This document shows positions 29 through 7,288 of a DNA stretch of 64,000 bases, piece by piece. A program made the position numbers and the translations under genes. The notes under the pieces are model-generated. The model had not been told where the DNA came from. It made no database searches and saw only the letters and a program-made list of their open reading frames with translations. Every line of letters begins with the position of its first letter. Within the stretch, counting starts at the first letter, position 1. Source of the stretch: Formivibrio citricus (lineage in GTDB: Bacteria > Pseudomonadota > Gammaproteobacteria > Burkholderiales > Chitinibacteraceae); assembly GCF_900115065.1 (NCBI RefSeq), contig NZ_FOVE01000018.1, forward strand, positions 1-64,000, read 5' to 3'.

Positions 29-1207
29 CTAAGCCTTTGAATTATCAGTAACTGGTTTTTCGCGCTCCCGCATACTGCCTGCTTGCATCACATATTCAAA
101 CAGCCGGCATTCCAGCGCACCATTGAACAGAACAGTACGTTTACTGGCTTTGAGGCCAATTTTTTTGGCCAGATCGAGATCGCCGGTAAAGAAATAGGCA
201 CGCCATCCTGCGAAACGCTGCTTCAGCACATCACCCCATTGCGGATAGAAAGCAGCCAGTTTTTCTTTTTCATCCAGACGCACGCCATACGGCGGGTTGC
301 ACAGCCAGATGCCGGATTCCGCCACTGGCTTGGCGTCGAGTACGTTTAGCTGCTTGAGCAATACCGTATCAATTACTCCCGCCGCCTCCAGATTCGCTTC
401 GGCATGCTTGAGCACCGTGCTCGATACATCACTGCCGTGAATGGCGAAGCACTCCTTGTTTTCCTGCGCGCGCGCGTCGGTGCGCAGCTTGTCCCACTCC
501 GCCGCGTTGTGCATGCGGAATTGCTGGAAAGCAAACGAGCGGCGCATTCCCGGTGCAATGCCGCGCGCCTTGAGTGCAGCCTCGATCAGGAAAGTGCCCG
601 ATCCACACATCGGGTCATACAAGGACTGCCCCGGTTGCCAGCCCGTCAGCGCCAGAATACCGGCGGCCAAGTTTTCGCGCAGCGGCGCTTCGCCAGCATC
701 CAGCCGGTAACCGCGCTTGAACAGCGCTTCGCCCGATGTATCCAGATACATCGCCGCCATACGATCCGTCAGGAACAGATGAATACGCATATCCGGCTCG
801 CGCGTATCGACACTGGGGCGAGACCCGGTCTTCAGGCGGAAGCGGTCGCAAATGCCGTCCTTGGTCTTGAGGCCGGCGAATTCCGGACTGCGCAGCGGCG
901 ACTTCACCGCCGTGACATTGACCTTGATGGTGTTCTCGACCGCAAAGAGATCGGGCCACTCGATATCGCGCGCCAAGCGATAGATGTCTTCCTCGCTGCG
1001 GTACGGTTTTTCTGCGAGTTTCCACAGGATACGGCTAGCGATGCGTGAATGCAGGTTGGCGCGCATCATCGTCCGCATGCCGCCAGAAAATCCGACGCCC
1101 CCATCGGTGGGCTGGACATTCTCGGCCTTGAGTTCGGTCAGTTCCTGCGCAAGCACGTTTTCCAAACCGCGCGGGCAAGGGGCGAAGAAATGGAAGAGTT
1201 GTTTCAT
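29..1207 (-). CDS. rlmL: THUMP-domain class I SAM-dependent rRNA methyltransferase (RlmL-like)
   Basis: A 392-residue protein with an N-terminal THUMP-type RNA-binding region (about residues 50-160) and a C-terminal Rossmann methyltransferase. The SAM-binding motif YDPMCGSGTF and the N6/N2-guanine type catalytic motif NPPYG are both visible. This matches the family of the N-terminal half of E. coli RlmL (23S rRNA m2G2445), expected to act in the cytoplasm on 23S rRNA. The fused RlmK half found in gammaproteobacteria is absent, which is usual for stand-alone family members. The start codon overlaps the stop of the upstream SMC-like gene by 4 bases (ATGA), so it looks translationally coupled to that operon. 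The exact rRNA target is inferred from the family. Confidence 0.85.
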   Translation of the reverse strand: MKQLFHFFAPCPRGLENVLAQELTELKAENVQPTDGGVGFSGGMRTMMRANLHSRIASRILWKLAEKPYRSEEDIYRLARDIEWPDLFAVENTIKVNVTAVKSPLRSPEFAGLKTKDGICDRFRLKTGSRPSVDTREPDMRIHLFLTDRMAAMYLDTSGEALFKRGYRLDAGEAPLRENLAAGILALTGWQPGQSLYDPMCGSGTFLIEAALKARGIAPGMRRSFAFQQFRMHNAAEWDKLRTDARAQENKECFAIHGSDVSSTVLKHAEANLEAAGVIDTVLLKQLNVLDAKPVAESGIWLCNPPYGVRLDEKEKLAAFYPQWGDVLKQRFAGWRAYFFTGDLDLAKKIGLKASKRTVLFNGALECRLFEYVMQAGSMREREKPVTDNSKA

Positions 1208-4035
1208 ACGGGCTCGCTTATGGGTTGTGGGGCCGGGGCATCGCAGCGCCGACGGGTTTGCAGGATCAACGGCGCCCAGGTTTCGCCGGGACGCTTCTTG
1301 CGCGTGGTGAGCGTCAGTTCGGACGGCGCGTAGACGTTGGTATTGTGCGTCAGCGGCGTCGTGATCAGGTACTGCGCCTGCGTGGCTTTCAGGAACGCGC
1401 CGACACGGTCGATATTGAAAATGTCCAGATGCGCGAACGGTTCGTCGATGAAGACGAAGCCGGACGGATTGCTTTCATCCATCATCAATCCGATCAGCAG
1501 GATCAGCGACTTCATGACCTGCTGGCCGCCGGAGGCTTCGCCGTCGTTCATGCCCATCATGCCCTTCTGGTCGAAGTCGAAGCGCGCGACCAAACCAGCC
1601 TGCGCCAGCGTCGTGTCGTCGTTTTCCAGATGCGGCATGTCGGTTTCGACACCGATGCCGGCAAGCTCCCCGAGATGCTTGAGGTTCTTGCCGTAGGCGC
1701 GCACGGTCGCCTTGAGTTTGTTGATGTAGGCGGAGCGCGCATCATCGGTCAGCTCGGCGGTGCGCTCGACCTCGATGCGGTGACTCTGCACATCGCGCTC
1801 CAGCCCTGCGTAATCGGCGATCAATTTGTCGCGCCGCAGGATGATCGTCGAGTCGGTTTCCCAATCACCGCTCTCCAGCGTCGCGCTCTGGCGCTCGATC
1901 ATGTGCTGCACTTCTCGCACCGTACCATATTGCTCGCGCAGCGCGCGCAACCCGGCCGGATCGGCTTGCGCGGCAGGCAGGCTGCGCTTCATATCGCGCA
2001 GTTCGCGGATGCGGCGACTCTGCTCGGCGCGCTGCTCGGTCAACTGTGCGATCAGCCCGGAGACTTCCTGATCGAGGCGGCGGCGTTCGGCTTCGACCAG
2101 CACGAACGCTTCGCGCGCCTGCATGTATGCGCGGCTGGCTTCGTCGCGCGCGGTTTGCGCCGCGGCCAGTGCCGCGCCGGTTTCCTGCGCCAGCCGTTTC
2201 TCTTCCGGGAAACGTTCTGCGGCCGCGGTGAATTCTTCCTGGCGCGAGGCAAGCTGCACCACCGCCTGCATGCCCATCAGTTGCTGCTGGATGCCTGCGA
2301 TTTCGCGCATCAGATTTTGCTGCTCGGTCTCGCGCTCCAGGATATCCGAGTTCAACTCGCGCAAGCGACGGGCAATCTCGTTCAGGCGCGATTTGCGCGC
2401 GGCTTCGCCGAACGCAAAGTCTCCGGCCTTGACCGAAATATCGCGCCCGCCGCGCCGCTCCTTGTGGAAACCTTCCGGCGTAATCCAGTCCGAATCGAGT
2501 TTCGACCCGGCTTCGATCGACTTAACCCGCTGCGTGCGGTTGAGCAGCGCAATCAGCCATCCCGGCGCATCGCCCTTGAAGTCGACAACTTCCAGTACGC
2601 TTCCTTTTGCGGCCTTTTCCACCGGTTCACGATCCGGAACGATGAAGTGGCGATATTTCAAGCGCTGGCCGATTTCCCAGGCACGGCGCTTGTCGGTCAC
2701 GCGCGCCAGCAAAACGATATGACGGAACGGCGCGAGCAGCGCTTCGACCGCCTCCTGCCAAGCCGGATCACGTACTTCTACGATTTCGGTCAACAGTTGA
2801 TGCGGGATGCCGGCTTCGTCGAGCGCGGCACGCATCTGGCTGACGAAAACCGGGTTGGGTTGCTGGCCGGATTGCAGTACAAATTGCGCTTCGGCCAGTT
2901 GCTGACGCTCGTCCTTGTCGGCCTTGATGGCTTCGCGCAGCGCGGTTTCCTTGCCGCGCAGCGCGCCCATGCGGTCGGACAAGGCCACGGCATCGGCGCC
3001 GTGTTCGCTCGCAGCGAGTTCGCGCAAGCGCTCGGCGTCCTTGAGGGTTTTCTCGGTATCGCCCGCAGCACGATTGGCATCGACAAACAGCCGATAAGCG
3101 GCGTCGCAATCGATCCGCGTCTGTTCCTCGTTCTGGCGCGCAGCCTGCTGGGCAGCTTCCTGTGCGCGGTAACGCGCATCGAGCGCATCAAGTTCATCCT
3201 GTTTCAGGCGCAACGATTTGCGTGCGCCGCGAAACTGGTTGATATAGCCCGCGAGACTGCCCCACTGATCGACGTATTTCAGTGCCGGAACGATCTCGTT
3301 CGCGAGCCGATCGGTATCCGCCTTCAGCGCCTGCCATTCCAGATAGCGGTTGGCGCGTGCGCGCAATGCCTCGACATCGTGACCGAGCTGCGACAGCTGC
3401 GCGGTCATGCGCTCCAGTTCGCCTTCGGCTTCTTTCAGCCGAAGCTTGGCTTCGGCGTAGTTGTCGAGCACCTGTTTGTCGCCGAAGACCTGAAACACCA
3501 GATCGAGCAGCGCTTTCGGACTGTATTCGCACAGCTTGTCGGTATCGCCCTGCTCCAGCGCCAGCACTTCGGCAATCGCCGGCGTCAGCCCGGCCTGCTC
3601 CAGCCGGCGCTTGTATTCGTTCACGCCAAGCCACTGCACGGCGTTTTCGGTTTCCTCGGTCAGCGCCACATTGCCTTCAGCAATCGCATACTGGCGCATC
3701 CAATCGCCGCCCTGGCGGCGAATGCGGCAGAACAGCGTGATTTCCGGCGTGGTCGCCGGGAAGAACAGGTAAGGGAACAGCCCGCCGCCCGGCCGCTTCG
3801 GGTTGCTGACCACACCGCGCAGCCAGGCGAAGTTCTCGCGGTTGTTGCGCACATAGCGCTTGTAATCGCGTCGGCCGGAACACTTGAGTGCCAGCAGCGT
3901 ACGCAACGCGTCAAGCAGCGTGGTTTTGCCCGAGCCGTTCGGCCCGACAATGGTGACGATCTGGGCATCAAGCGGCGTCTTGATCGCCTGCCAGAAATCC
4001 CAGTGGATCATTTCCAGTTCACGGATTTGGAACAT
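1204..4035 (-). CDS. SMC-like condensin ATPase of MksB/JetC type
   Basis: A 943-residue ABC-type SMC protein. The Walker A motif GPNGSGKTT is at residues 31-39 and is followed by a Q-loop-like stretch around 160-200 typical of SMC proteins. Two heptad-rich coiled-coil arms (about 195-390 and 550-790) flank a hinge-like globular segment (about 395-540, containing LTEIVEVRDPAWQEAVEALL). The signature ASGGQQ (about 834) and Walker B FVFIDEP (about 860) lie near the C-terminus. The length fits MksB and is much shorter than MukB. Gene order after an MksF/JetA-like and an MksE/JetB-like gene supports a condensin-like DNA loop-extruding complex. No JetD/MksG nuclease gene is visible here, so a chromosome-organisation role is as likely as plasmid defence. 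Assignment is from architecture and context. Confidence 0.72.
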   Translation of the reverse strand: MFQIRELEMIHWDFWQAIKTPLDAQIVTIVGPNGSGKTTLLDALRTLLALKCSGRRDYKRYVRNNRENFAWLRGVVSNPKRPGGGLFPYLFFPATTPEITLFCRIRRQGGDWMRQYAIAEGNVALTEETENAVQWLGVNEYKRRLEQAGLTPAIAEVLALEQGDTDKLCEYSPKALLDLVFQVFGDKQVLDNYAEAKLRLKEAEGELERMTAQLSQLGHDVEALRARANRYLEWQALKADTDRLANEIVPALKYVDQWGSLAGYINQFRGARKSLRLKQDELDALDARYRAQEAAQQAARQNEEQTRIDCDAAYRLFVDANRAAGDTEKTLKDAERLRELAASEHGADAVALSDRMGALRGKETALREAIKADKDERQQLAEAQFVLQSGQQPNPVFVSQMRAALDEAGIPHQLLTEIVEVRDPAWQEAVEALLAPFRHIVLLARVTDKRRAWEIGQRLKYRHFIVPDREPVEKAAKGSVLEVVDFKGDAPGWLIALLNRTQRVKSIEAGSKLDSDWITPEGFHKERRGGRDISVKAGDFAFGEAARKSRLNEIARRLRELNSDILERETEQQNLMREIAGIQQQLMGMQAVVQLASRQEEFTAAAERFPEEKRLAQETGAALAAAQTARDEASRAYMQAREAFVLVEAERRRLDQEVSGLIAQLTEQRAEQSRRIRELRDMKRSLPAAQADPAGLRALREQYGTVREVQHMIERQSATLESGDWETDSTIILRRDKLIADYAGLERDVQSHRIEVERTAELTDDARSAYINKLKATVRAYGKNLKHLGELAGIGVETDMPHLENDDTTLAQAGLVARFDFDQKGMMGMNDGEASGGQQVMKSLILLIGLMMDESNPSGFVFIDEPFAHLDIFNIDRVGAFLKATQAQYLITTPLTHNTNVYAPSELTLTTRKKRPGETWAPLILQTRRRCDAPAPQPISEPV

Positions 4036-4049
4036 TCACTAACCCTTTA

Positions 4050-4090
4050 CCACAGAGACACAGAGGCACAGAGGCACAGAGTAAAAACGG
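4050..4090. repeat. Short tandem repeat between mksE-like and mksB-like genes
   Basis: Direct repetition of a CACAGAGG/ACAGAGGCAC unit occupies most of the 66-base gap between the two genes, ending in taaaaacgg. It resembles the dispersed caccacgaag/cacaaag elements at 7290 and 27278 in composition and in the trailing aaaaacgg. No start or stop codon depends on it. Confidence 0.6.
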
Positions 4091-4101
4091 AAAGGCCACA
4101 G

Positions 4102-4764
4102 TTATTCATTGTCGGCCTCCTCATCCTGCACCACCTCGACATTCAGCTTCAACACTTCGGCCAACGCGCCGTCGATGATGCGCGGCGCGAGTTTGCCGTA
4201 GTCGAGCATCAGATCCAGCAGCGGGCCCTCATGAATCATCTTGTTTTTGCGCACGACAAAGCCAAGCCGGGCGAGCTGCCCCAGATTCGCACCGAAGCGC
4301 ATCTTGCCGCCCAGCTTCTTGCCGAAATCGGCGTAAACCGCATCCTCCGGTACGCCAGGCGCAACTTCCTCGCCATGCGCGATCGGCTTGGCGGCGCCGA
4401 ACATGTCGCCTTGCGAATCGCCGACCGTTTCCGAACGCGCAATCTGGCGTTCACGCTTGGGCAGGATGATGAGCGCCCACAGCACGACCAGCAACGCGAT
4501 GGCATCGCGCGGCAAGCCCATATTGTTCGACAGCCAGTTCTCGCCTTCGCCGAACACCCAGTCGTTCAGCTCGGGCTGCAGGCCGATGGCAATGTATTCG
4601 GCGTAAGGGTTCTCGAGCAGCACCAGCCCCATTTCGTCGAGCTTGGTTTCGAGCGTTTCACGGAACGATTCATCGACCAGCGCGCGCCGGGCGAGCGGGT
4701 CGCTGCGCGGGATAAAGCGATGCGCCAGCAGGCGCGCCAGCAGGATTTGTTGGGATTGATTCAT
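4102..4764 (-). CDS. MksE/JetB-like KITE subunit of SMC complex
   Basis: A 220-residue acidic protein between the kleisin-like and SMC-like genes. Its size and position match MukE/MksE/JetB (KITE) subunits, which are tandem winged-helix dimers that bind the kleisin. A helical segment LLVVLWALIILPKRER (about 92-107) and a C-terminal winged-helix-like region (LGQLARLGFVVRKNKMIHEGP) can be seen. It starts 14 bases after the stop of the upstream gene. There is no enzymatic motif. The call rests on operon position, size and general fold impression, since I could not run a profile search. Confidence 0.6.
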   Translation of the reverse strand: MNQSQQILLARLLAHRFIPRSDPLARRALVDESFRETLETKLDEMGLVLLENPYAEYIAIGLQPELNDWVFGEGENWLSNNMGLPRDAIALLVVLWALIILPKRERQIARSETVGDSQGDMFGAAKPIAHGEEVAPGVPEDAVYADFGKKLGGKMRFGANLGQLARLGFVVRKNKMIHEGPLLDLMLDYGKLAPRIIDGALAEVLKLNVEVVQDEEADNE

Positions 4765-4778
4765 GCCAACCTCTTCGT

Positions 4779-6032
4779 TCAGTTCTTTTGCAATCGGCCA
4801 CGGGTGATCGCGGCGACTTCCGGGTGATCGGGATAATCGAGCGCATCCTCGGTTTCCAGGCGCAGCGGCAAGCGCACCAGATCGGCAACGACACTGGTTT
4901 CGGTGGCCGCATCGGCATCGCCGAGCAGCGCCAGCAGCGACAATCGGTAGGCGGTCTGGTTATAGGTATCGGCCAGTACCACATCGGTCAGCGCCGTTTC
5001 GCCGACGAGTTGCGCAAGCTCTTCATGCAGCGCTTCGGCCTCAAGCAAGCGCTCGACCTCAAGTTCGCTCGTCACAGGCGCGGCATCGCTCGCCGGCAAG
5101 GTCGAAGCATGCTGCTCTGGCCGGTCGCGCTCGACCAGCTCGAATTCGGCGACATCGAGCATTTCATCAGAAGTCACGAACAGCGGCTCGGGGTGGAAGC
5201 TCAGCAGGTCGCGGCCGAGATCGGACAAGGCCTCCTGCGTCAGCCCGCGCAACCAGTCAGCGACATTGGTGGAGGTCAGCCCGGACTGCCCGAGGTGCAC
5301 GCGCTGCGCAGCCAGCTCGGACAGACGGCGCTGGAATACGCCCGTCAGGCGCAACATCCGGCTCTGGGCATAGGCAATCGCTTGTGCCTGATTCAGCGTA
5401 ACCAGATCGAGCGAATCGTCCTCCAGGATCATGCGCATGACATCGGTACCTTTTTGCACCCACAGCCAGACACTTTCGAGCTTTTGCTGCGCACCGCGAA
5501 TCTGGAATTCGGACTGCGATTCGAGAGCATCCTCGAACGTGCGGTGCAGTTCGTTCAGCCGCGCCAACAGGTGTTGCAGCGTTTCGGCCGAAACGCGCCC
5601 CATTGCCTGTCCGGCAGCCACCTGCGCGGTCAGGTAGCCAAGCTCGGCATCGCCCTCGGCGAACTGGATCAGGGTCGAGAGCGCGGCCAGCGCCACGCGC
5701 CCGCTTTCGGCCAGATCGTAGAGCTGTTCGTCGCTGTCCCAAACCAGCAAACCATTGTCGCGAAGGCGCTTCAATACCGTGTCGAGCTTGACCGGATTGA
5801 TGTAAGCAAAGTGTGTCTGCAATTCCTGCGGCGACCAGCGCGGCGCTTCGGCGCGTGCGCCGATTTCCCGCAGGATCAGGAGGCGAACCAGTACCTCGTC
5901 CTCGCCGCCGCGGAACAGCGTGATAAAGGCGTCGAGGAACGGCCGGGCGCGCAGCAGACTGGCTACGCCGCCAAGTTCAAGCGGGTTGAAACCGGGCCGG
6001 AAAAAATCGTCAAGAAACGAGTCGTTTTGCAT
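4779..6032 (-). CDS. MksF/JetA-like kleisin subunit of SMC complex
   Basis: A 417-residue first gene of the SMC-like operon. The N-terminal part (about 60-125) looks like a winged helix (VLKRLRDNGLLVWDSDEQLYDLAESGR), followed by a long helical region and an acidic C-terminal third with another helical domain. This is the layout of MukF/MksF/JetA kleisins, which bridge the SMC heads. Its ATG lies only about 8 bases after the U-tract of the obg terminator, with no evident Shine-Dalgarno sequence, so expression probably depends on read-through from obg. Function is inferred from architecture and from the three-gene order kleisin-KITE-SMC. Confidence 0.62.
   Translation of the reverse strand: MQNDSFLDDFFRPGFNPLELGGVASLLRARPFLDAFITLFRGGEDEVLVRLLILREIGARAEAPRWSPQELQTHFAYINPVKLDTVLKRLRDNGLLVWDSDEQLYDLAESGRVALAALSTLIQFAEGDAELGYLTAQVAAGQAMGRVSAETLQHLLARLNELHRTFEDALESQSEFQIRGAQQKLESVWLWVQKGTDVMRMILEDDSLDLVTLNQAQAIAYAQSRMLRLTGVFQRRLSELAAQRVHLGQSGLTSTNVADWLRGLTQEALSDLGRDLLSFHPEPLFVTSDEMLDVAEFELVERDRPEQHASTLPASDAAPVTSELEVERLLEAEALHEELAQLVGETALTDVVLADTYNQTAYRLSLLALLGDADAATETSVVADLVRLPLRLETEDALDYPDHPEVAAITRGRLQKN

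Positions 6033-6106: not shown

Positions 6107-7288
<1,182 letters not shown>

Follow-up and report, generated by a model that had tools for sequence, protein, structure and literature searches.

An MksBEF-type condensin operon next to obg with a probable origin by nuclease loss from a Wadjet-like system

The first 7.3 kb of the window, i.e., of the whole 64,000-nt stretch of DNA analysed here, contain the genes for Obg, a kleisin (F), a KITE (E), an SMC subunit and an RlmL-like protein, all on the minus strand (Table 1). We consider it probable that the three-gene operon encodes a divergent MksBEF-type condensin, which arose from a four-gene Wadjet-like ancestor when the nuclease gene was lost and is kept most likely as a chromosome organiser. 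That is, the best reading of the locus is not a functional Wadjet but a previously unannotated, divergent MksBEF subfamily. Beyond what a preliminary description had reported, we find that relatives have a jetD-like gene at the same place, which by sequence comparison appears to have been lost repeatedly.

An origin of MksBEF from Wadjet through nuclease loss has already been proposed, with no comparative data given there (PMC10586767). Here, one clade presents all states at a single locus: in some genomes the nuclease looks active, in others its metal-binding residues are damaged, one has an orphan, broken nuclease, and elsewhere the gene is missing beside a strongly constrained motor. The useful part is this natural nuclease-loss series at one locus.

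In the proposed mechanism, a dimer of the 943-aa SMC ATPase would be bridged by the MukF/MksF-like kleisin, which would in turn bear the JetB/MksE-like KITE (as KITE dimers). If it works like MukBEF, MksBEF and the anti-plasmid system Wadjet, this ring-shaped complex would load on or entrap DNA and presumably extrude loops with ATP. The ancestor would have been a four-gene operon like mksFEBG/jetABCD, from which the last gene, encoding a Toprim nuclease, has disappeared here. Without the cutter, plasmids would not be linearised by the known route, and the remaining complex would be maintained by selection, most likely because it serves the chromosome as a second condensin next to SMC-ScpAB, the situation found in P. 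aeruginosa.

Table 1. Genes of the locus and ATPase motifs of the SMC subunit, with positions in the window.
Feature	Position	Strand	Remark
rlmL-like 23S rRNA methyltransferase gene	29-1207	-	UPF0020 1.2e-51, THUMP, RlmL_1st
SMC-type ATPase gene (MksB/JetC-like)	1204-4035	-	943 aa, intact ORF
Walker B GFVFIDEPF, SMC residues 859-867	1435-1461	-	invariant in alignment A4
ABC signature NDGEASGGQQ, SMC residues 830-839	1519-1548	-	invariant in alignment A4
Walker A GPNGSGKTT, SMC residues 31-39	3919-3945	-	read from sequence; invariant in alignment A4 of relatives
KITE subunit gene (MksE/JetB-like)	4102-4764	-	220 aa, intact ORF
kleisin subunit gene (MksF/JetA-like)	4779-6032	-	417 aa, intact ORF
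obg GTPase gene, conserved upstream neighbour	6107-7270	-	GTP1_OBG 5.5e-59

Operon layout and subunits

The canonical kleisin-KITE-SMC order beside obg, noted earlier, is confirmed by the ORFs and by synteny in relatives: orthologues repeat the gene order in dozens of genomes, i.e., far above chance. The spacers measure 74 bp (obg-kleisin), 14 bp (kleisin-KITE) and 66 bp (KITE-SMC). The SMC stop and the rlmL-like gene overlap by 4 bp, such that there is no room for a nuclease gene between them; the rlmL-like gene fills the site where relatives have the jetD-like gene. Base 1 of the window is the first base of the contig (G000:C42), and the view ends at rlmL. Relatives have jetD between the SMC gene and rlmL, however, and this stretch is seen in full here. 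Contigs of the window genome and of several relatives stop within a few hundred bases past rlmL, which suggests a repeated element, e.g., an rRNA operon, just downstream. Promoter and terminator scans of the operon gave nothing exceeding shuffles.

The SMC protein shows heads, short coiled-coil arms and a hinge. It is matched by SMC_N (Pfam, 5.3e-16) and by the JetC1 models (6e-20), and its hinge region (residues 347-667) aligns with the DUF3375-linked JetC alignment at 99.4% probability (E 3.9e-21, hhalign). The PF13558 profile failed to detect it, and its MukB profile matches are marginal only. The earlier assignment as a short-armed, MksB-like SMC agrees with the intact ATP-binding and signature motifs, i.e., Walker A, ABC signature and Walker B, and with the JetC-type hinge.

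One congener, the metagenome-assembled genome CTSoil_114 (L055:11469-14306, L071:8966-11803), deviates in this gene. Its F, E, Obg and RlmL share 86-91% identity with those of the window; within SMC, the heads are about 80-98%, the hinge about 65% and the arms only 18-42% identical. These arms are in frame, the protein has the same length as the window SMC, and similar arms were seen in no other relative. It looks like the arm-hinge segment was replaced through recombination, with breakpoints near SMC nucleotides 710 and 2162. A frameshift was rejected as the source of the arms (the frame is open, with no match in other frames), and so was an apparent giant fused SMC in L045, which is masked sequence (N) and not a fusion.

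For the kleisin and the KITE, Pfam gave no match and PADLOC and NCBIfam trivial scores only; that is, among the Jet profiles, the SMC was recognised while neither of the two partners reached a useful score. Pipelines built on these libraries would overlook both subunits of the subfamily. We thus compared folds. The kleisin is laid out as an N-terminal winged helix, a helical neck-binding region, a linker and a C-terminal winged helix. The best five Foldseek PDB matches of its model, which was built from the family alignment at low confidence (mean pLDDT 62.7), are MukF chains. Over model residues 40-252, VIA-align gives Z 11.4-11.8 against MukF, tied with MarR-type single winged-helix proteins, and Z 10.4 against the Wadjet-II JetA 9qe0. 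The KITE shows tandem winged helices, and the best three Foldseek PDB matches of its model (mean pLDDT 57.8, i.e., low confidence, with the N-terminal domain as the reliable part) are JetB of P. aeruginosa PA14 and E. coli (E 1e-4 to 5e-4). VIA-align yields Z 9.0 against JetB (61 residues, 1.5 A), and MukE comes second with 6.6. These models support the predicted identities, already guessed in the preliminary description, of the 417-aa protein as a MukF/MksF-like kleisin and of the 220-aa protein as a JetB/MksE-like KITE with the tandem winged helices of MukE/JetB; a lack of such structural likeness would have spoken against them. Comparing both proteins by hhalign with the DUF3375 and DUF4194 families of typical Wadjet gave nothing significant, even with outgroups added, and homology to the typical Wadjet subunits is therefore based on fold comparison. 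Searching PDB sequences with kleisin, KITE and JetD profiles found no real match.

A JetD-like gene is absent both at the locus and genome-wide (JetD_C plus family-specific profiles; genome 99.5% complete), and an all-frame scan of the nuclease-less loci for a hidden jetD remnant returned chance-level scores only. The claim that no JetD/MksG nuclease gene lies on either side of the operon is thus upheld, with rlmL 3' of the SMC gene and obg 5' of the kleisin gene. The two places at which a jetD might have been overlooked, i.e., a distant site in the genome or the immediate outside of the window, can be answered likewise: the genome search found none, and the SMC-rlmL site used by relatives is fully seen and empty.

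The complex can be set against three known systems. P. aeruginosa MksBEF (PMC7485682) also consists of SMC, KITE and kleisin, is nuclease-free and coexists with SMC-ScpAB, a likeness in architecture. It belongs to another bacterial order, and its chromosome function has been demonstrated, whereas for the window complex we infer a role in chromosome organisation by analogy to it. With Wadjet (JetABCD / MksBEFG / EptABCD), the locus shares the JetB fold of the KITE, the JetC-type hinge of the SMC and the F-E-B order, and relatives have a JetD1-like Toprim gene after SMC. In contrast to Wadjet, it has no JetD/MksG nuclease subunit; the DUF3375, DUF4194 and PADLOC JetA/JetB models give no useful scores for its kleisin and KITE, and its SMC has 943 aa compared to about 1115-1160 aa in the canonical loci retrieved for comparison. 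Regarding E. coli MukBEF, the window kleisin fold is nearest to MukF and MukE is the second-best match of the KITE; on the other hand, MukB is much longer, with an NCBIfam model of 1486 positions, such that the window SMC lacks the very long MukB form, and the window genome has SMC-ScpAB components (SMC, ScpA) beside the complex.

Retention of the operon and its likely role

The kleisin gene or operon was found in 36/37 Chitinibacteraceae genomes searched, the window's own included. The single exception (G001) is a fragmented congener with 6% contamination, in which both kleisin and KITE are missing. Relatives with the operon comprise Iodobacter, Deefgea, Chitinibacter, Jeongeupia, Andreprevotia, Chitiniphilus, Silvimonas, Chitinimonas and others, which we take to be Chitinibacteraceae, as well as Chromobacterium, Aquitalea, Vogesella, Pseudogulbenkiania, Crenobacter and Paludibacterium, presumably Chromobacteriaceae; Leeia and one Dechloromonas also have it. 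Across the Chitinibacteraceae the usual order is the same as in the window, i.e., obg-F-E-SMC-rlmL, with extra genes in places. A search of plasmids for relatives of the kleisin found none.

The extra genes are of three kinds. Between kleisin and KITE, a ~219-aa gene without useful Pfam/PADLOC match is seen in Iodobacter, Andreprevotia, Chitinolyticbacter, Silvimonas terrae and Chitinilyticum aquatile (loci L039, L040, L041, L056, L062, L064); its product is possibly an accessory subunit. A ~170-aa ORF, judged by eye to be a GNAT-type acetyltransferase, lies between the KITE and SMC genes in L042, L043, L047, L049, L051, L052 and L066 and is missing in the close relatives L048 and L050. Finally, a Core-2/I-branching glycosyltransferase-like gene (PF02485, 6.5e-20) is found between obg and kleisin in L042, L043, L046, L063, L065 and L066.

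Between congeners, dN/dS of F, E and SMC is about 0.02-0.23 and mostly near that of obg, with jetD present or not, while JetD (0.11-0.28) is above F and SMC in every measured pair and above E in all pairs but Aquitalea (0.108 vs 0.155); all values are from NG86 with partly saturated sites and thus a rough guide only. On these sequence-based estimates, purifying selection acts on F, E and SMC as it does on obg. In addition, a search of the window genome for SMC and ScpA, from the smc-scpAB check proposed along with the preliminary description, found a 1188-aa SMC and ScpA. The F-E-B operon hence occurs alongside SMC-ScpAB components, as expected of MksBEF.

Descent from a Wadjet-like system and intact ATPase motifs and subunits would also suit a three-gene complex with a remaining, non-cutting defence role against plasmids or phages, i.e., one that senses small circular DNA by loop extrusion and then silences or compacts this DNA, such that the nuclease is dispensable. 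Silencing or compaction of small circular DNA has been proposed for Smc5/6, but we know of no such non-cutting mechanism for JetABC alone. Retention in 36/37 family genomes, the obg-like constraint and the fixed chromosomal site contrast with the patchy spread of defence systems, and in B. subtilis all four subunits are required (PMC10586767). Non-cutting defence is thus unlikely; if true, the repeated nuclease loss in Neisseriales would mark a change from destroying plasmids to keeping them in check. It is very unlikely that another effector, unlinked or unrecognised, replaces JetD and keeps the system defensive: relatives' operons do contain inserted genes (the ~219-aa gene between F and E, the GNAT genes between E and SMC) and our searches detect JetD-like nucleases only, but the window operon has no accessory gene, and the nuclease-less lineages do not share one.

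The preliminary description had left the choice between a housekeeping condensin and a defence complex with a different effector. Given the family-wide retention, the obg-like dN/dS, the absence on plasmids and the coexistence with SMC and ScpA, the operon is probably housekeeping, and its defence option is disfavoured.

The jetD-like gene in relatives

Most Neisseriales genomes having the operon are without jetD. In Silvimonas, one Chitinolyticbacter, Aquitalea, Pseudogulbenkiania and Crenobacter, a ~400-aa gene follows 3' of the SMC gene. It is matched by PADLOC JetD1 models (2e-13), with JetD_C or DUF2399 just below cut-off, and a wider search detected the same JetD-like gene in several other families of the order. 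The outgroup loci are from these other betaproteobacterial families, plus one from another order that was found through the kleisin. There, L183, L184, L186, L188, L190-L193 and the Dechloromonas locus L133 show F-E-SMC-JetD with mostly overlapping SMC and jetD, i.e., 9/9 outgroup loci that contain the three condensin genes also have jetD. Four genes are thus the condition of the outgroups. A sister-species pair provides a direct comparison of the motor with and without the cutter: in Chitinolyticbacter G013, jetD separates the SMC gene from a small gene, whereas in C. albus the same flanks are about 20 bp apart.

In C. glutamicum MksG, E236 and D279 are required for cleavage (PMC10123090); we assigned them by motif, i.e., without direct alignment to MksG, to the VEN glutamate and the CDxD aspartates of the JetD-like proteins. 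Silvimonas, Chitinolyticbacter, Aquitalea and the outgroups have kept the metal-binding motifs intact (with CDPH in outgroup L188). In Pseudogulbenkiania the VEN glutamate is changed from E to Q. Crenobacter has the same E to Q change and, in addition, D to S at the second CDxD aspartate and E to G at the first glutamate of EQE. In G432, from the Chromobacteriaceae group, an orphan jetD with both D lost lies beside obg (L189:3075-5779) with no F, E or SMC there, and the E (KITE) gene was found nowhere in the genome. By its gene content, G432 is the reverse outcome: the motor is gone and a dead nuclease is retained.

The JetD tree has a single Neisseriales clade (100/99), composed of a Chitinibacteraceae clade (100/98) and a Chromobacteriaceae clade (100/100). 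This split agrees with the F+E+SMC tree at family-clade level, and the JetD tree fits vertical descent. Dollo parsimony, which allows no regain, counts 17 jetD losses among 86 taxa (16 with weak branches collapsed). With gain and loss weighted equally, 6 changes suffice in unordered parsimony, a count that leaves room for some regain within Neisseriales. While this count and the many operon-bearing Neisseriales genomes without jetD would permit an ancestral nuclease-less state with several gains of jetD, such a history is highly improbable in view of the 9/9 outgroup loci with jetD, the JetD subtrees matching the F+E+SMC clades, and the decaying active sites and the orphan jetD beside obg, which are the intermediates expected under loss. 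We infer that jetD loss, and not repeated gain, explains the nuclease-less loci.

Distant relatives of the betaproteobacterial JetD-like protein are also encoded on Variovorax and Diaphorobacter plasmids (NZ_LR594663.1, NZ_LR594690.1, NZ_CP049912.1), where they are annotated as hypothetical.
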